Source of the DNA: an uncultured Lachnoclostridium sp.
GTDB lineage: Bacteria; Bacillota; Clostridia; Lachnospirales; Lachnospiraceae
Assembly (NCBI GenBank): GCA_944376715.1
Contig: CALWDO010000006.1
Span: 32,140 to 96,139, forward strand
Reading direction: 5' to 3'
Length of the DNA: 64,000 bases
Of this stretch, positions 28,886 to 37,270 are shown piece by piece (the first letter of the stretch is position 1; each line of letters begins with the position of its first letter). The position numbers and the translations under genes were made by a program. Under the pieces are notes generated by a model. That model worked only from the letters and a program-made list of their open reading frames with translations, made no database searches and was not told where the DNA came from.

Positions 28886-28915
28886 TTGCCGAGCCAAGAT
28901 TTACCATGGTAAAAT
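28886..28915 (+). promoter_or_regulatory. Promoter of the zinc-ribbon triplet with internal palindrome
   Basis: TTGCCG (28886-28891), 18 bp, TAAAAT (28910-28915). A perfect 12-bp palindrome, TTACCATGGTAA (28901-28912), overlaps the end of the spacer and the -10 box and could be a repressor site. Confidence 0.5.
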
Positions 28916-28974
28916 AATTCTATTAAACCACGCGGCCAGACCAGGCGCCGCACAGATACGGAGGAATACATAAC

Positions 28975-29727
28975 ATGATCTGCCCTTACTGCGGATTTGA
29001 ATATGCGGACGACCTGCTCCGCTGCCCCCACTGCGGAGCAGAAAATGTCCGGGAAGCCCGGGAACAGCAGCAGGAAACGCTTCACTCTCTGGAAGAGGAG
29101 CGCGAAGATATCCGGCATGAGCCGGAGCGGATTCTGAGAAAGACCAACCGGGCTGCCGCCAGGATCGGCGTCCGCATCTTCATCGGAGTCATCATAGCCG
29201 CCGTCCTGATCGTAGCCGGAAGTTTCATATGGAGGCTCTGGACCCGTCGCACCCTGGCCCGCAATGTGGAAAGGCTGGACGCCTGCCTGGCCGAAGGCGA
29301 TTACGAAGGCCTGTCCGCGCTTCTTGACCGCATTGACTCCTATGATTCCGCCTACGATCCATACTATCCGGTATCGTATGCCTACCAGGATCTCTCCTAT
29401 GTGCAGGATGATCTGAAATGGTTCCGTACAGATCTGGAAAGCGGCCTGGAAGACTCTTATCTGCTGCAAAGTCTCTCTTTCGCTCTGAACGACGCTATGA
29501 ATGCGCTGATACGGGCCGAAAACGGAATCCAGGACGATCTGTATCTGGGCAACGAAGACGCCCTGCAGGACATCTATGATCAGGCCTGCGAACTGCTGAC
29601 CGGAACCTTAAAAGTCACGGAAGAAGAGATCGGGCAGATGTCGGAATTTTATGGAGATCAAGATTCTCTCTACGATGAATCGCTCTTTATTCCCTATGCC
29701 GCATTAGTCCTGGAACGATTGGAGTAG
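28975..29727 (+). CDS. Zinc-ribbon membrane protein, triplet member 1
   Basis: 250 aa, start after ACGGAGGA. The N-terminus is a zinc ribbon (Cys3, Cys6, Cys17, Cys20). A charged helix (about 25-60), a membrane helix (about 66-87) and an external or lumenal domain follow. That domain begins with a motif shared with the next two genes: L-x-E-G-x-Y-x-x-L, then a Tyr/Asp-rich stretch. Near the end LLTGTLKVTEEEI matches LLGMLKLTEDDI of member 2. I know no named family. The gene starts a three-gene plus-strand operon that converges on an Hsp70/J-TPR operon, so a role in protein quality control at the membrane is a guess from context only. Confidence 0.78.
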   Translation: MICPYCGFEYADDLLRCPHCGAENVREAREQQQETLHSLEEEREDIRHEPERILRKTNRAAARIGVRIFIGVIIAAVLIVAGSFIWRLWTRRTLARNVERLDACLAEGDYEGLSALLDRIDSYDSAYDPYYPVSYAYQDLSYVQDDLKWFRTDLESGLEDSYLLQSLSFALNDAMNALIRAENGIQDDLYLGNEDALQDIYDQACELLTGTLKVTEEEIGQMSEFYGDQDSLYDESLFIPYAALVLERLE

Positions 29728-29730
29728 CTT

Positions 29731-30504
29731 ATGAAATGTCCTTACTGCGGCGGAGAAGTCTCCGTCAATGATGTCCGGTGTCCTTACTGCGGAAACCTGA
29801 ATCCGGAAGGAGCCGCTTTTCAGGGAGAAGTACACAGACGCCGGAAACTGAATGAATACCTCAGGCAAAAGATGCGGGACCAGCTTCGGCTTCCCCTCGC
29901 ACAGAGGATCATGAATCTGGCCATTGTGATTCTGGCGCTTCTGTGGATTCTGATTACCGTCCTTGGCATGATCTGGTACCTGGTCCGGGATCCCCGGACT
30001 CTGGGGCTGGGCCGTCCTGACGATTATGAGTCTCAGATAGAAGCCCTCTATAATGAGGGCCGCTACGGTGAACTGTACGCATATATGGACCGTTACGGCC
30101 TGAATGGACAGGATTATCCCCAGTACATGCAGATGGCGCTGTATTACTACACTTACACAGACTTCGTTCAGTACAGCATGAACTGTACACAGGCGCTGGA
30201 AGAAGGATCTGTCCCGGGTGATTTCTATCTGAAATACGCCATCGACAGCGCGGCAGAACTGATGCAGCCGCATATTCCCGCCTATCCGGACACTTATCCG
30301 GTCAATCAGGAAAATCTGAGTGTCTATCAGGAAGAAGCGCGGACTTTTCTTCTGGGTATGCTGAAACTGACCGAGGACGATATCCAGGTACTCTATCCGG
30401 AGGAAGACGGCAGCGGATATGTCTCTTTTACAGATATTGAACAACTCATGGAACTGGCAAAAGAGCGTCTAAAAGAGGAGGGCTACCATGAATCAGAAGC
30501 GTAA
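29731..30504 (+). CDS. Zinc-ribbon membrane protein, triplet member 2
   Basis: 257 aa, beginning 3 bp after member 1. Zinc ribbon Cys3, Cys6, Cys17 and Cys20, a basic helix (about 34-58), a membrane helix (about 62-84) and an external domain. Shared with members 1 and 3 is LYNEGRYGELYAYMDR followed by a Tyr-rich helix; shared with member 1 is LLGMLKLTEDDI. The C-terminus overlaps the start of member 3 by 17 bp. The tight spacing and common domain indicate tandem duplication of one ancestral gene and joint function. Confidence 0.78.
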   Translation: MKCPYCGGEVSVNDVRCPYCGNLNPEGAAFQGEVHRRRKLNEYLRQKMRDQLRLPLAQRIMNLAIVILALLWILITVLGMIWYLVRDPRTLGLGRPDDYESQIEALYNEGRYGELYAYMDRYGLNGQDYPQYMQMALYYYTYTDFVQYSMNCTQALEEGSVPGDFYLKYAIDSAAELMQPHIPAYPDTYPVNQENLSVYQEEARTFLLGMLKLTEDDIQVLYPEEDGSGYVSFTDIEQLMELAKERLKEEGYHESEA

Positions 30505-30913
30505 TGCGCATCATCGCCGCTTTTTCATTAAAGGACTGATTATCCTTCTTCTGCTTGGCATGAACTATATCATGTTTTCTTTTTTCTTTTCCTCCGTTGT
30601 GGAAGATATTACTTATGACAATGAGAGTTACCGGGACGCCCGCCTGCTGGAACTGACCAGCGAAGGAGAGTATGCAGACCTGTACGAAGAGCTGAATCTC
30701 TACGACCTGTATGAAGATAAATATGACGATTACTGGGATGTGACCGACGCCTGGCATCTGTACTGCCGGTTCCTCGCCGCCAGGGAAGCCGGCTTTCCTG
30801 CGGAAGAGGAGACCCTCCGCTCCCGTCTGTTGGAATTGCCGGCCGACCAGGAGAACAGAACTGCGCAGACAGCGGTCGAACGGATCCAGGAACTGGTGCG
30901 GGAAGGCGCCTGA
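30488..30913 (+). CDS. Membrane protein, triplet member 3 (no zinc ribbon)
   Basis: 141 aa, starting inside the end of member 2 with GAGGAG just ahead. It lacks the zinc ribbon: a basic N-terminus (HHRR) is followed by a membrane helix (about 13-33) and the shared domain, recognised from LTSEGEYADLYEELNLYDLYE and the following Asp/Tyr/Trp-rich helix. It is a shorter relative of members 1 and 2 that lost or never had the ribbon. Its stop is 5 bp from the stop of the convergent methyltransferase gene. Function unknown. Confidence 0.75.
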   Translation: MNQKRNAHHRRFFIKGLIILLLLGMNYIMFSFFFSSVVEDITYDNESYRDARLLELTSEGEYADLYEELNLYDLYEDKYDDYWDVTDAWHLYCRFLAAREAGFPAEEETLRSRLLELPADQENRTAQTAVERIQELVREGA

Positions 30914-30918
30914 TTCCC

Positions 30919-32067
30919 TCAGGTATCTTCTCCCCTCAGCAGCCTATCCAGCGTAGGCCGGAATCCAAACTGTTCCTTCAGCGCGTCCACTTCCTGAAGC
31001 ATCGCGCGGCGCGTCTTTTCCGGTATATTGGAGCGCACGGCACGGATCAGAATATTTTTCGGCGTGTGGGACAGATCCACGAATTCCAGAAGCTGCGTCC
31101 GGTAGCCGCTGGCTGTCAGCAGATTTCCACGGATGGCGTCCGTCATCAGGGCCGCCGTCCGTTCTTTTATGATCCCGTAACGGGTCAGTATGGGAAGATT
31201 TCCGCCCTGCATCTGGCCGTTCAGCTCGTGCTGGCAGCATGGAACCGAAAAGATCAGCCGCGCGTTCCAGCGGACCGCATTGTACAGCGCGTAATCCGTC
31301 GCCGTATCGCAGGCGTGGAGGGAGACCACCATATCCACCGGATACGGGCACTCATATCCGTTGATATCTCCCAGTTCAAAGCGCAGATGTTCATAACCGT
31401 ACTTCTCCGCCGCCTGATTGCAGCGCTCTATCACATCCGCCTTCAGATCCAGACCGATAATTCTCACATCCAGCCGCCGGACCTGCGTCAGGTAATAATA
31501 CAGGATAAATGTCAGATAAGATTTCCCGCAGCCAAAATCGATCACCGTCAATATCCGGTCCTTTGGAAGAGTCCCGATCTCGTCGTCGATCAGCTCCACA
31601 AAGCGGTTGATCTGACGGTATTTGTCATACATGGACCGGACGATCTTTCCTTCTGACGTAAAGATTCCCATATCCACCAGAGGAGGGATCGTCTGCCCTT
31701 CTTCCAGGATATAGTTTTTCTTGCGGTTATGGCCCGTCTTCTCCTTTGGGGCCTGCGCCGTCTTCTTTTTCGTATAGGATGCTTTTCCGCCCTTGGAGAC
31801 ACGGACCGCATGTTCCCGTTCTCCGTCCCAGGCATTCAACTGACGGTACCCCTGCCGCATGGCTCCTTCCAGAAACTCTTTCAGTTCCTCCTCCGACATA
31901 TTCTCGTGAAATACCTGTTTCTCGGTATATTTCTCGGCCTGCCAGCCCTCTCCCAGACGGTTGATCACGATCCGCCGGAACTGCTCGTCCTTGCGGTACG
32001 GATTGCTCAGGATCATTTTATAAGGCTCCGAGGCCAGCACCGTCTCCAACATCTGTTGTAAATCCAT
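30919..32067 (-). CDS. SAM-dependent methyltransferase (Methyltransf_32-like)
   Basis: 382 aa from the ATG at 32067, which follows GGGAG and lies 4 bp after the Hsp70 gene; the longer frame would overlap that gene. The C-terminal half is a Rossmann methyltransferase: VIDFGCGKSYLTF (SAM motif I), IGLDLKADVI (motif II) and VSLHACDTATDYAL with a later PCCQHEL, a set typical of Methyltransf_32/METTL25-like proteins. The N-terminal 140 residues are specific, with a basic Lys-rich part before the core. The substrate is unknown. Its place as last gene of the J-TPR/Hsp70 operon suggests it modifies a client or the translation machinery. Confidence 0.8.
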   Translation of the reverse strand: MDLQQMLETVLASEPYKMILSNPYRKDEQFRRIVINRLGEGWQAEKYTEKQVFHENMSEEELKEFLEGAMRQGYRQLNAWDGEREHAVRVSKGGKASYTKKKTAQAPKEKTGHNRKKNYILEEGQTIPPLVDMGIFTSEGKIVRSMYDKYRQINRFVELIDDEIGTLPKDRILTVIDFGCGKSYLTFILYYYLTQVRRLDVRIIGLDLKADVIERCNQAAEKYGYEHLRFELGDINGYECPYPVDMVVSLHACDTATDYALYNAVRWNARLIFSVPCCQHELNGQMQGGNLPILTRYGIIKERTAALMTDAIRGNLLTASGYRTQLLEFVDLSHTPKNILIRAVRSNIPEKTRRAMLQEVDALKEQFGFRPTLDRLLRGEDT

Positions 32068-32071
32068 CTTT

Positions 32072-33766
32072 CTACTCCCACTCATCCAGTTTTTCCAGGA
32101 ATTCCATATATTCTCTCTTTGCTTCCGCAATACGTTCCGGGTCGTAGGTATCCAGAGCATGCTCAAATTCCCGAAGCATCCGTCCGACCTGCTCTCTTTT
32201 CACGCCCAGACTCTCTTCGTAGATCCTCTCGCCTCTCAGCAGAAGGACTTTATTCTCCTCCTTATCCCGGGGATGAATCTTCAGATAAGAGAGCGTCTTC
32301 AGTCGATCTTCAATCTCTTCCTCGCTCATGTCCAGATTCTGCCCTTTAAACACCTGGCGTACTTTCTTCCCGCTGGAAACGGATTTTACTTCCACTTCCA
32401 GGATCGAGTTAATATCATAGGTATAGGTCACGTCCACAGCCTCCTGCCCGGCTTTCCCGGCGGGAACTTCGATGAACAGTTCTCCAAGAGACAGGTTATT
32501 GACGGCGAAGCGGCTCTCTCCCTGTAAGATATGTACCCGGATCTTGGTCTGATTATCCCTCACTGTATACAGGCGTTCCGTACGGCTGGCCGGGATCACC
32601 GTGTTTCTTTCGATAATCGGGAGAAATACCCCGTCCTCATACTGATGATCGCCGTATTCCTGGACTACTTCCGTACCCAGGGTGAAGGGACAGACGTCGG
32701 TCAGGATCACCTCCCGGATACCGTCCCGGCGTTCTTTCATCGCCGCCTGGATCGCCGCTCCCAGCGCCACCGCTTCATCCGGGTTGATCTTGGTATCCGG
32801 AATCATATGGAACAGCTTTCCGGCAAATCTGCGGATCACCGGAGATTTGGTGGCTCCGCCCACCAGCACCACCTGATCGATATCCGAAAGACGGATATGG
32901 GCGTCCTTCAGGCTCCGCTTCACAGGCTGGCGGATCCTGTCCAGCAGTTCCTCACAGGCATCCTCGTAGTCGGGAAGCTCAACCGGGAATACATACTCTT
33001 GCCCCTCTATATTGCACCTCATCTCCGAAGTCCGGTTTTCTCCGAAGCCGATCTTGCACAGCTCCGCCTGGCGCCGGATATGCTGCTGGGTCTTTCCGCT
33101 CAGTGTAAAGCGGTTCAGCTGCGGATGGGCGTCGTAAAACATCTTCTCCAGCACTTCCGTGAAGTCTTCTCCTCCCAGGAAATTGTCTCCCGCCACCGCG
33201 TGGACCTCCAGGATCGTATCGTACAGTTCCAGGATAGATACGTCGAAAGTACCTCCTCCCAGGTCAAAGACCAGGAACCGCGCATGATCCTTTTTCTGCC
33301 AGAGTCCATAGGCGATAGCGGCAGCCGTCGGCTCGCTGATGATCCTCTCGACTTTCAGCCCGGCCAGTTCTCCCGCGCGCTTGGTGGCCCGCCTCCTGGC
33401 GTCGTTAAAATACGCCGGGACGCTGATCACCGCCTCCGTCACCGGTTCCCCCAGAAATGCCTCCGCATCCTCTTTCAGATAACGCAGGACGAAAGAAGAC
33501 AGTTCTTCTGCCGTAAACTCCTTGTCTCTTAATCGAAATTTCTTCCCGCTTCCCATGCTGCGCTTGAACAGAGACGCTCCGCTGTCCGGGCTCAGCAAGA
33601 TCTGTTCCGCCGCGGATTCTCCCACATAGACCTGTCCGTCTTCTCCGATGCTGACCACCGAAGGGGTCAGACGCTTTCCGATCCGGTTCGGGATCACACG
33701 GGGTCCTTCTTCTGTATAATAAGCCACCAGGCTGTTGGTGGTTCCAAGATCAATTCCTACTATCAT
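32072..33766 (-). CDS. Hsp70-family chaperone, HscC-like
   Basis: 564 aa, shorter than DnaK (about 610-640) and close to HscC. The nucleotide-binding domain (about 1-360) shows GIDLGTTNS (phosphate 1), DLGGGTFDVS (phosphate 2) and VVLVGGATKSPVIRR. A substrate-binding domain (about 365-490) and a short helical lid follow; the C-terminal EEVD-like tail of DnaK is absent. No grpE or dnaJ adjoins. Instead the gene starts 6 bp after a large J-like/TPR protein, which is the likely partner. In E. coli HscC also works with dedicated J proteins (DjlB, DjlC) rather than DnaJ. Confidence 0.9.
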   Translation of the reverse strand: MIVGIDLGTTNSLVAYYTEEGPRVIPNRIGKRLTPSVVSIGEDGQVYVGESAAEQILLSPDSGASLFKRSMGSGKKFRLRDKEFTAEELSSFVLRYLKEDAEAFLGEPVTEAVISVPAYFNDARRRATKRAGELAGLKVERIISEPTAAAIAYGLWQKKDHARFLVFDLGGGTFDVSILELYDTILEVHAVAGDNFLGGEDFTEVLEKMFYDAHPQLNRFTLSGKTQQHIRRQAELCKIGFGENRTSEMRCNIEGQEYVFPVELPDYEDACEELLDRIRQPVKRSLKDAHIRLSDIDQVVLVGGATKSPVIRRFAGKLFHMIPDTKINPDEAVALGAAIQAAMKERRDGIREVILTDVCPFTLGTEVVQEYGDHQYEDGVFLPIIERNTVIPASRTERLYTVRDNQTKIRVHILQGESRFAVNNLSLGELFIEVPAGKAGQEAVDVTYTYDINSILEVEVKSVSSGKKVRQVFKGQNLDMSEEEIEDRLKTLSYLKIHPRDKEENKVLLLRGERIYEESLGVKREQVGRMLREFEHALDTYDPERIAEAKREYMEFLEKLDEWE

Positions 33767-33772
33767 ATACTG

Positions 33773-36700
33773 TCAAATCTCCCCTCGAATTCTTTGGACG
33801 GTACTTTTGAGTTCCAGGTCGTTGGGACAGATCTTAAGAGCCTTCTCCCCGCAGGCAAGCGCTTCGCTCCAGTTTTCTTCTCCCATCCGGAAGATCATCT
33901 CTCCGATCAGGCCCTCGTAGCACTCCGGCTCCCTGCAGTATTTACAGCGCAGTCCCTCCCGTGTCTGTTCAAAATATGCAAGGGCCTTCTCTGTCTCTCC
34001 CATATACAGATAGCACTCGCCGACTTTGCTGAGCCTCTGGGGACGTTCCGCCGGATAGGACACATAGATCTTTTCGGAAATATATCCCCGCAGCATCAGA
34101 TCGAGCGCCAGTCTGGCGCATCTTGCCGCCTCGCCCCATCGTTTTTCCAGATACTGGATCCTTGCCTGCAGCATCAGATTTTGGATACGCTGGTCGTCCC
34201 CGGCGCTCCATACGGAACGTCCGTCCATCTCCTCCGCTTTTTTCAGCAGCCGCATGGCGCCGTCGTTGTCGCCGAAATGATGGAACAGCCGGTCCGCGCA
34301 TTCCGTATGTCTCCGGTAGATCCGCCTCGTTCCGCACTGCAGCGATTTCTTATAGTAATATTTCGCCTGCAGCATTTTCCCTTTCGCCACACAGATATCT
34401 CCAAGACGCAGCAGATGCTCTTTTTCTTCCGGAAACTTCTTATATGCCTCTTCGGCTTCTTCATATCTGCCCATATAACGGTACAGATTTCCCATATCTT
34501 CATAGAAAGACAGTTCGTCCGGGAACCATTCCAGGTCCTTCCGATAGCATTCGATCGCTTTCCCATAGTCGCGGAGAATCTCATAGCAGTCCGCCATATT
34601 GCTGTAGGGCATGATCTTTTTCTCTCCGGTCTTGTTCAGGCATTCCAGTGACTTTTCATACATTTCAATGCTTTTCTCGAACTGTTTTAAATGCTTGTAG
34701 CAGTAACCCAGGTTGTTGTAGGAAGCCCAGTCGTCAGGATTATAAGTCAGCGCCTTTTCAAAATCGGCGATGGCTTCGTCGAGCCTCATGGCTTCCATAT
34801 ACATCAGGCCCCTGTGCACCAGCGTATAGCATCCTTCCCAGTTCTCCACTTCCTGGTCCATGTACCGGACTGCCCGTTCAAAATCATCCGGGTTCGCAAA
34901 TCTGCGGTACCGCCGCATATAGATATCTGCCACTTTCTCATTCACGTCCCGGAACCCCGGATCCATATCCGCCGCTTTCCGGAAATGTTCCAGCGCCTTA
35001 TCCTCATAACCCGTATCTTCATGGCAGCATCCGACTCCGTAATACCACGCCGCGGTATCACCATACTCTTCTTTCGCCTGATCGTAGGAGAGAAGCGCCG
35101 CCCGCGGCTTTTCTGCGCTGCGCAGAATCTCCGCCCGCACCATGAAATACTGCAGCCGGGACGGATTGCCAAGGACGGCCCCCTGAAGATAATTCAAGGC
35201 GTCATCCAGCTCGTTGTCGTCCCATTTCAGCAGCGCCATCTCATATTTCAGTTCCGATATATCTTCCAGATCCGTTTTTTCTCTGTCCACGGCCTTCTCT
35301 AAAAATAACAGATCTGCAAAGATCTTCTTCCGGTCTTCGGAGTTATTCGCCAGATTGCGAAGCGCCTTCAGGCGGTACAGTTTCATCTGGTCGCTTGGCT
35401 CCACCTGATTTTCTTCCGCGCGCTTCACCACATCCAGGGCGTCCTCATACTGGTGGCAGAAGAAAAATACCTTCTCCGCCAGCAAGTACGGTTTGTAATA
35501 TCCCGGATAGATCTCCACCGCCCGATAGTAGTCATCCACCACCTGCTGTCCGTTCTGCAGGCGGAAATACGCCTCCTGCCGGTTCACATAGGCAGGATAG
35601 TAATTTTTCTCCATGGACAGAATCTGTCCGCATACATCAACGGCCTTTTCACAGGCGTCCATGGCGAGGAAGACTTCCGCCAGAGAGTTCATGCAGCTCA
35701 GTTTTTCCGATAAGACAGTGAGCTCAGGGATCCCTTTCTCCAGAAGTCCGGCCGCTTCTTCATATGCTCCGGTCTGATAGCGGCTCCATCCCAGCATCAG
35801 ATAGGCGGAACCCTTCCGGCGCAGACGCTTCGCCGCCTCCTCGGTCCCGTCGTCCTCCGTCGCCAGAATCAGGCGGAGCCATATTTCCAGCTCCGGTACC
35901 GCTTCCTGAAAACGGGACATGGCCGCCAGTACCCTTCCTTTCAGGTTGTGATAGCTGTACAGCAGGTTTTCAGCGGGCGTCGTCCCGAAAGGCGCGGAAA
36001 TATTCTCCGGAATATTTTCATAGCAGGACATCCCGTTCAAGATCTCCAAAGCTTTTTCAAACTCCCGGTTCTGGAAATAGCACCAGGCGATTTCCAGCTC
36101 CGTCTCTCTGCGTTCATCTCCTTCCGGAAGCCTGCGCGCCTTATCCTCATATCCGGCGATCAGATAACGGTTGGCCTCCGCCAGATATTCAGATAAACGC
36201 TCGTCGTTATTCTCTTCCATCAGATCCAGCGCCGCTTCTTTCGCCTTCTGCGCGTCGCGCCCGTTCTCCAGCCAATACCGGACCATACCGCAGCGGGCCT
36301 CGTAATTCTCCGGAGCTTTCTGCCAGCAGGCAAAGGCTTTCTCATGATCTCCGTATGCCCACTGCACATTTCCGGCCTGCGTCATGATATACTGGGAATC
36401 AGGCCAGGACTCTGCCAGTTCTTCCGCCTCCGCAAGGAGCGCGTCCTTCTGCAGCTTGTTCGCTTCTTCCGTCATCTCCGGGGCGTCCAGGGCAATCTTA
36501 TATAACGCCGACCGGATCCGCAGACGTTCCGCGCTCTCCCAGGGATAGAAGACGCCGTACGCACTGATCTCTTCCGCCTTCTGCGCCGCCTTTTTCCAGT
36601 CTCCCTGGTCGCAGATATTCCGGAGTTCCTGATATGCCCGGATATAACCGTCCACATCCACAGTCCCCGCATCGGCGTCCTCCCTGAGGCGCATCTGGTC

Positions 36701-37207
36701 AAAGTCAATATAATAATCGTGCTCCGTATAAAATTTTACATAATTCAGGAAATCCTCCGGATAGTGCTCCTTGAGTTCTTCCGTGTCTTCTGCAATCTGG
36801 AATTCCTGATCCAGCCTTTTCCATACGGCACGGGGCAGGAAGAAATGAGAAAGCAAATACCCCAGCATGGCGTCGCGGGCTTCCAGCGACGTATCCAGGT
36901 CTTGACAGACCGGATCCTTTAAGACTTCCTCCCAGGTCTCCGGATCTTTCCGGCTCCTGAAATCCCGGTAGACGGCGTCCACCCGGCCGATCCAGAGTTC
37001 CACAGGCGTCTTCTCCTGTTCTTCTTCCTGATCTTTATCCCGCAGAAGTCTCTGCGCTTCCTCATAGGCTTCACGGAGACGGCGGAATCCCTCCTGGTCA
37101 TCCTCCGGATTCACCGATCTTAGTTTTTCGTGATACGCGTTTCTTAACGTATCCTCGTCCGTCAGTTCCTTCAATCCCAGTATCTGCAGCATCAATGTCC
37201 GTTCCAT
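33773..37207 (-). CDS. Large TPR protein with an N-terminal degenerate J-like domain
   Basis: 1144 aa from the ATG at 37207, which follows GGAGGG; the frame to 37270 has no site. The first 55 residues resemble a J domain: LQILGLKEL, a helix with AYHEKLRSV, then NPED where HPD is expected, and the helix FRRLREAYEEAQRLL. The rest is helical repeats, with canonical TPR units from about 730 on (for example WASYNNLGYCYKHLKQFEKSI). It has no signal peptide or membrane helix. It probably tethers clients or complexes to the Hsp70 encoded 6 bp downstream. The loss of the HPD His, which normally triggers Hsp70 ATPase, raises the question of how it works. Confidence 0.85.
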   Translation of the reverse strand: MERTLMLQILGLKELTDEDTLRNAYHEKLRSVNPEDDQEGFRRLREAYEEAQRLLRDKDQEEEQEKTPVELWIGRVDAVYRDFRSRKDPETWEEVLKDPVCQDLDTSLEARDAMLGYLLSHFFLPRAVWKRLDQEFQIAEDTEELKEHYPEDFLNYVKFYTEHDYYIDFDQMRLREDADAGTVDVDGYIRAYQELRNICDQGDWKKAAQKAEEISAYGVFYPWESAERLRIRSALYKIALDAPEMTEEANKLQKDALLAEAEELAESWPDSQYIMTQAGNVQWAYGDHEKAFACWQKAPENYEARCGMVRYWLENGRDAQKAKEAALDLMEENNDERLSEYLAEANRYLIAGYEDKARRLPEGDERRETELEIAWCYFQNREFEKALEILNGMSCYENIPENISAPFGTTPAENLLYSYHNLKGRVLAAMSRFQEAVPELEIWLRLILATEDDGTEEAAKRLRRKGSAYLMLGWSRYQTGAYEEAAGLLEKGIPELTVLSEKLSCMNSLAEVFLAMDACEKAVDVCGQILSMEKNYYPAYVNRQEAYFRLQNGQQVVDDYYRAVEIYPGYYKPYLLAEKVFFFCHQYEDALDVVKRAEENQVEPSDQMKLYRLKALRNLANNSEDRKKIFADLLFLEKAVDREKTDLEDISELKYEMALLKWDDNELDDALNYLQGAVLGNPSRLQYFMVRAEILRSAEKPRAALLSYDQAKEEYGDTAAWYYGVGCCHEDTGYEDKALEHFRKAADMDPGFRDVNEKVADIYMRRYRRFANPDDFERAVRYMDQEVENWEGCYTLVHRGLMYMEAMRLDEAIADFEKALTYNPDDWASYNNLGYCYKHLKQFEKSIEMYEKSLECLNKTGEKKIMPYSNMADCYEILRDYGKAIECYRKDLEWFPDELSFYEDMGNLYRYMGRYEEAEEAYKKFPEEKEHLLRLGDICVAKGKMLQAKYYYKKSLQCGTRRIYRRHTECADRLFHHFGDNDGAMRLLKKAEEMDGRSVWSAGDDQRIQNLMLQARIQYLEKRWGEAARCARLALDLMLRGYISEKIYVSYPAERPQRLSKVGECYLYMGETEKALAYFEQTREGLRCKYCREPECYEGLIGEMIFRMGEENWSEALACGEKALKICPNDLELKSTVQRIRGEI

Positions 37208-37241
37208 CCTGCACCCTCCATTTTGGCTGTCGTTTTCTACC

Positions 37242-37270
37242 ATTATAAAAAATACCGGACCAGAATACAA
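37242..37270 (-). promoter_or_regulatory. Promoter of the J-TPR/Hsp70/methyltransferase operon
   Basis: On the minus strand TTGTAT (37265-37270), 17 bp, TATAAT (37242-37247), 35 bp before the ATG. No CIRCE-like inverted repeat (TTAGCACTC-type) is seen, so HrcA control is not indicated. Confidence 0.7.

Follow-up and report, generated by a model that had tools for sequence, protein, structure and literature searches.

Two genes of the locus probably encode a dedicated HscC-type chaperone, in which an Hsp70 works with a soluble TPR client adaptor, is fired through an NPE-bearing J-domain and is independent of GrpE; this reading is drawn from sequence and predicted structure. J-proteins are held to share one unvarying trigger, the HPD motif. 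Here, in a 64-kb stretch of DNA from a gut bacterium of the Lachnospiraceae (hereafter the window), a specialised Hsp70 is accompanied by a giant helper whose HPD became NPE and was then kept. Among named relatives, the closest found was Lachnoclostridium sp. An196 (L103), with 98% Hsp70 identity.

The locus holds six genes in two facing groups. On the reverse strand, the J-TPR co-chaperone (1144 aa from its ATG; 33773..37207), recognised by many TPR matches, a J profile and a structural model, precedes an HscC-type Hsp70 of 564 aa (32072..33766), recognised by an HSP70 match (E 8.3e-126), HscC hallmarks and its position in a tree. A Methyltransf_32-type methyltransferase follows (30919..32067; Methyltransf_32 E 1.2e-42). 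On the forward strand lies an operon of three membrane proteins: protein A (28975..29727), protein B (29731..30504) and a third protein with one transmembrane (TM) helix (30488..30913). In the window, the J-TPR and Hsp70 genes are 6 bp apart, the Hsp70 and methyltransferase genes 4 bp, and 5 bp separate the methyltransferase stop codon from that of the facing triplet operon. The initial annotation had given this arrangement, with zinc ribbons in two triplet members and all three related. Its spacing agrees with the coordinates to the base; A and B each carry the paired CxxC of a zinc ribbon and the third protein has none, yet a profile of A and B detects it (E 3.1e-8), so that the description as three related proteins holds.

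The initial annotation had also reported that no dnaJ, grpE or heat-shock operator is present. This is right for the window and wrong for the genome, which has grpE, dnaK and dnaJ together on another contig (C3), as well as five J-domain genes above the Pfam cut-off outside the window, each with HPD. A search of the 64-kb window allowing up to three mismatches found no CIRCE site, and promoter and terminator scans gave scores no better than shuffles; a heat-shock operon was rejected.

The conserved unit is two genes, J-TPR and Hsp70. Among 120 genomes of the family, the Hsp70 is present at a minimum of 55% identity in 28, and the J-TPR protein is present in exactly those 28. The J-TPR gene lies on the strand of the Hsp70 gene in 106 of 107 fetched loci (tblastn), a figure that measures linkage given the Hsp70, since all 107 loci were fetched via that protein; short contigs are among them, and in places one genome is represented by two loci (for example, L043 and L116). 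The single exception, L171, is a 3-kb contig with a weak J-TPR match. Spacing is close in most of the 102 called pairs: the genes overlap in 23 (by 4 bp in 20) and are separated by 0–10 bp in 17, 11–50 bp in 30, 51–150 bp in 26 and further in 6. The evidence for a dedicated Hsp70/J-TPR chaperone is strong. The original proposal had gone further, joining a cytoplasmic client, its modification and a membrane receptor through one dedicated chaperone; the pairing of the two genes and the J-domain bear out its chaperone part, and the links to the methyltransferase and the triplet did not hold, as set out below.

Some genomes carry additional J-TPR genes. In the close relative L104 (3069-10001), two tandem J-TPR genes, at 61% and 66% identity to the window protein, precede the Hsp70, apparently by duplication. 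Loci L079–L082 each show an extra copy: the stretch fetched has a J-TPR gene and no Hsp70, and the genome has the pair as well. The motif is NPE in two and HPE in one of L080–L082, and the called ORF of L079 begins inside the J-domain. In L207, a J-TPR protein is present with no true Hsp70 within the 16 kb fetched.

The methyltransferase is a neighbour of the Hsp70 only in the window and in L103–L109, which are the closest named relatives (84–98% Hsp70 identity); tblastn did not find it in the other 100 of the 107 loci. It occurs in 72 of the 120 family genomes regardless of the chaperone, and its presence in 19 of the 28 chaperone genomes compares with 16.8 expected (p 0.23). The triplet, counted at 80 bits or more, occurs in 20 of the 120 genomes. 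Seven of the 28 chaperone genomes have it against 4.7 expected (p 0.14), so that the check put forward in the initial annotation, co-occurrence of Hsp70 and triplet, did not bear out its proposal. Nor do the two stay together on the chromosome: the triplet lies near the J-TPR/Hsp70 pair only in the window and in 2 of the 107 loci, namely L103, in which the whole gene order is kept, and L057 (genome G002). Every ORF of the 107 loci was searched with a profile, and no triplet beyond those near these two pairs came to light; a partial ribbon-like ORF ~9 kb beyond the Hsp70 in L143 (43 bits) was left out of the count.

In L057 (8881-10852), the J-TPR gene is separated from the Hsp70 gene by the triplet, all on one strand, and a 10-TM protein accompanies the triplet; no other case of this kind was seen. 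This arrangement is the single piece of evidence that links triplet and chaperone, and one case cannot carry the idea. That chaperone, methyltransferase and zinc-ribbon membrane triplet cooperate as a real six-gene system is suggested by their tight spacing, by the same-strand row of L057 and by the whole order kept in L103. It is contradicted by the rarity of the arrangement (besides the window, 2 of 107 loci have the triplet near the pair and 7 of 107 have the methyltransferase there), by the lack of significant co-occurrence and by the triplets that lie away from the pair in the other genomes fetched. We rejected the six-gene system on the missing linkage and co-occurrence, and consider it very unlikely. 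The methyltransferase and the triplet are neighbours, not subunits, the methyltransferase being a lineage-specific neighbour.

The triplet itself is a common compact operon of Lachnospiraceae (window 28975-30913; L083–L102), composed of two proteins with a ribbon, TM helix and outer domain and a third without a ribbon. Some genomes have more than one copy, and in many Lachnospiraceae it lies away from this Hsp70.

The Hsp70 is of the HscC type, as first annotated, by its sequence hallmarks and by its place in the HscC clade. Its length of 564 aa lies inside the HscC-type range of 550–580 aa. Compared with E. coli DnaK, HscA and HscC, it is without the DnaK 76–101 segment; it also lacks the D211 loop and the GrpE signature, where 6 residues are missing. 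The 76–101 deletion is not exclusive to HscC and is described also for many non-proteobacterial DnaKs (PMC8215388). Features reported for HscC include a 4–8 aa insertion in L1,2 and a ~9-aa deletion in lid helix B (PMC8215388); the insertion of ~9 aa and the gap of 11 aa found here are slightly over the published range. In a tree of 43 entries, one of which (L207) is not an Hsp70 and was ignored, the HscC group holding both the window Hsp70 and E. coli HscC has a support of 0.967. Within it, the window group clusters with HscC-like Hsp70s from other families of the Bacillota (support 0.998), and the node uniting E. coli HscC with the window group is weak (0.49).

The missing GrpE signature suggests that this Hsp70 is probably GrpE-independent and insulated from the DnaK system of the same cell. 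The full DnaK system and the five HPD J genes of the genome would instead suit a DnaK paralogue that uses ordinary J-proteins and GrpE, the TPR protein beside it being incidental. Such a paralogue would be at odds with the absent GrpE signature, the HscC clade and the near-absolute linkage to the J-TPR gene, and we consider this the least probable of the readings weighed here.

The J-TPR protein begins with a Djl-type J-domain (residues 1–58; 37034..37207, reverse strand), followed by a conserved middle domain (residues ~68–230) and a TPR solenoid that runs to the C-terminus. Its match to the Pfam DnaJ family (PF00226, E 0.0066) is below the Pfam cut-off. The J profile scored 87 bits with DjlB, 82 with DjlC and 27 with DnaJ; residues 1–58 line up with E. 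coli DnaJ in the same register (Y25, P34), and their best alignment is with DjlB and DjlC. A PDB profile search with the J-domain matched the DnaJ of 5nro (E 2.4e-6). AlphaFold2 predicted J helices at residues 3–10, 18–29 and 38–58 and then a helical solenoid (mean pLDDT 92.5, pTM 0.66), and predicted the J helices again for an N-terminal piece (mean pLDDT 93.8, pTM 0.75). Foldseek matched the N-terminal model to J-domains at probabilities of 0.85–0.87, with one more at 0.33; the E-values of 2.5–3.8 exceed 1, so the assignment of the fold depends chiefly on sequence and helices and less on the fold search. The top 50 matches of the whole model included helical repeat (TPR and similar) proteins. 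Profile matches and predicted J helices together support the J-like domain proposed for the TPR protein in the initial annotation.

Taken alone, the middle domain scored 2.3 bits with DjlB, and homology between the two is not claimed. An alignment of 60 proteins has 7 invariant positions, 4 of them in the J-domain, and 25 nearly invariant ones, of which the J-domain holds 12. Against seven relatives, pN is lower than pS in all three parts (J, middle and TPR); when close relatives are compared, constraint on the J-domain does not exceed that on the TPR part (L103: pN 0.17 versus 0.095). Hydropathy revealed no TM helix in the J-TPR protein. Near the C-terminus, a CxxCxxxxC motif (residues 1088–1096; 33920..33946, reverse strand) is a feature of the clade: CxxCx4C or a close variant is found in 101 of 106 J-TPR proteins and is absent from four HPE outgroup proteins (L206–L209). 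As a guess, this motif might bind metal or sense redox state, which is loosely in line with the Cd2+ sensitivity reported for E. coli hscC mutants (PMC8215388).

Residues 33–35 of the J-domain read NPE in place of HPD (37103..37111, reverse strand). Among 106 J-TPR proteins, all from loci fetched via the Hsp70 and read with a looser pattern (a stricter one gave 103 with 3 misses), Asn33 is present in 103, Pro34 in 106 and Glu35 in 105; position 33 is otherwise His in two proteins and unreadable in one. Both Asn codons are used at position 33 (77 AAT, 25 AAC). In the DnaJ–DnaK complex, H33 is described as bonding to the L391 backbone, and D35 as contacting R167 and Q378 (PMC8215388). These contact residues are kept in the group's Hsp70s (R167 in 105 of 105, Q378 in 102 and L391 in 104), as are P419 and D393 (105 of 105 each). 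D211 is deleted and D477 is replaced by T in all 105, so that part of the DnaK–J electrostatics is gone.

From these residues, we infer that NPE stimulates the Hsp70 ATPase; E. coli DjlC is reported to stimulate that of HscC (PMC8215388). The J-TPR protein would hold clients in its helical solenoid, and its DjlB/DjlC-type J-domain would dock on the linker side of the adjacent Hsp70, as the kept contact residues suggest. Asn33 could stand in for His33 and donate the hydrogen bond to the Leu391 backbone, as an Asn side chain is able to do, while Glu35 could replace Asp35 opposite Arg167/Gln378, as Glu can reach the same arginine. Docking would then trigger ATP hydrolysis and client capture, in an Hsp70 cycle that would proceed without GrpE and apart from DnaK. 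NPE may even be a functional trigger re-coded by selection, an orthogonal key to which only its own HscC-type Hsp70 responds, with the pair thereby insulated from DnaK and from the cell's HPD J-proteins; we hold this view tentatively. Whether other changes to HPD reflect accident or selection has been called enigmatic (PMC13254874). The retention of NPE across many Lachnospiraceae beside one dedicated Hsp70 argues against accident.

The published mutants point the other way. Replacement of H by Q or of D by N in the motif is reported to abolish stimulation in every system tested (PMC8215388, PMC13254874), and a 2026 review describes HPE as the only replacement that seems tolerated (PMC13254874); NPE may therefore be inactive. 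In MD of DnaK–DnaJ, H33A still binds and the stimulating state is lost (PMC13012618). As a dead trigger, NPE would make the J-TPR protein a type IV, Pam16-like factor that binds or positions the Hsp70 but leaves it unstimulated, or that competes with an active J-protein. Proteins of this type are known, Pam16 among them (PMC13254874), and one of the genome's five HPD J-proteins could be the active partner. A second, DnaJ-like gene, which a dead trigger would favour, is however found in only 4 of the 107 loci (L047, L144, L145 and L155). The motif is uniform, not degraded, R167, Q378, L391 and P419 of the Hsp70 are kept, and in the nearest outgroup HPE J-proteins are likewise paired with HscC. 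On this evidence, we regard a dead trigger as the main rival reading, though a less likely one. The second J gene of L047 (5720-6328) is an ordinary J-domain gene of 202 aa, two genes from the pair; L144, L145 and L155 have a similar ORF ~8 kb off.

A possible counterpart of the motif in the Hsp70 was considered and dropped. Of the group's 105 Hsp70s, 103 have S at position 170; N is found there in 10 of 13 other HscC-type Hsp70s, nine of these with an HPE partner. Four pairs break the pattern (L067, N with NPE; L068, A with NPE; L065 and L169, S with HPE), and the residue follows the clade, so that the change from N170 to S could be phylogeny only.

Loss of the motif His was also seen elsewhere in the Bacillota. 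A further 18 loci were found with the J profile of the NPE group, and therefore lean towards its likeness. Twelve of their J-proteins are without the His (six PPE, three PPD, and one each of NPE, APE and TPE) and six have HPD. Eleven of the 12 His-less proteins adjoin a divergent Hsp70 (322–436 bits to E. coli DnaK, lowest 321); L222 has no Hsp70 within its 7-kb contig. Four of the six HPD proteins stand by a DnaK (690–720 bits), L227 by a cut-off Hsp70 piece resembling DnaK and L219 by none. In this sample, the His thus seems to have been lost repeatedly in J-proteins that have a divergent Hsp70 of their own. The divergent Hsp70s of the six loci first examined kept R167 in six and Q378 in five, and a GrpE gene of their own was present in four of four His-less loci tested. 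These operons (L218, L220–L226, L229–L231 and L233), which come from other families of the Bacillota, represent a second class of dedicated chaperone operon; two of their J-proteins end in a SEC-C motif.

An altered trigger beside a dedicated Hsp70 provides a two-protein system for testing accident against selection in vitro. If NPE is active, the two proteins would be an orthogonal Hsp70–J pair, and the collected loci would offer many natural pairs for mapping the Hsp70 residues that read the motif.

The closest described relative is E. coli hscC with djlB/djlC, which makes the initial statement that no system with this gene set had been described partly wrong. Both systems share the Hsp70 hallmarks and clade, a Djl-type J-domain with a short loop before helix III, and clustered genes. 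The E. coli DjlB and DjlC proteins, however, have 475 and 483 aa, a C-terminal TM helix and HPE, whereas the window partner is a predicted soluble TPR solenoid of 1144 aa with NPE and a C-terminal Cys motif; by its sequence, it thus lacks two DjlB/DjlC traits, the HPE motif and the membrane anchor. Among eukaryotic J-TPR proteins, DNAJC7 is a general Hsp70 partner with an HPD motif. It likewise combines a J-domain with a TPR client arm, but its J-domain is described as lying near the C-terminus (PMC13254874).

Other Bacillota pairs (L071–L078, L206 and L208–L210) resemble that of the window in that an HscC-like Hsp70 adjoins a Djl-like J-protein, except in L073, where no J gene was seen beside the Hsp70 in the fetched stretch. 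They differ in the motif, which is HPE in 8 of 11 partners, and in that several partners have TM helices. The outgroup J-proteins of L206–L210 all have HPE. Loci L071–L078 carry second HscC-like Hsp70s of Lachnospiraceae (~40% identity) beside a Djl-like J-protein; five of these partners have TM helices, and their motifs are HPE (L071, L072, L074 and L077), HPS (L075), HLE (L076) and RPE (L078).

We know of no type IV J-domain protein with an Hsp70 gene of its own beside it. Type IV proteins, such as Pam16 and DNAJB13, share with the window protein a clear J-domain in which HPD is replaced; those described are eukaryotic, and their replacements are DKE or DKS and HPL, respectively (PMC13254874). 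Among the matches listed in a search of the open-licence literature, covering titles and the starts of abstracts, none concerned an NPE J-domain or a J-TPR/HscC pair. What is new here is the NPE motif and the predicted soluble TPR partner, on an Hsp70 of the known HscC kind.
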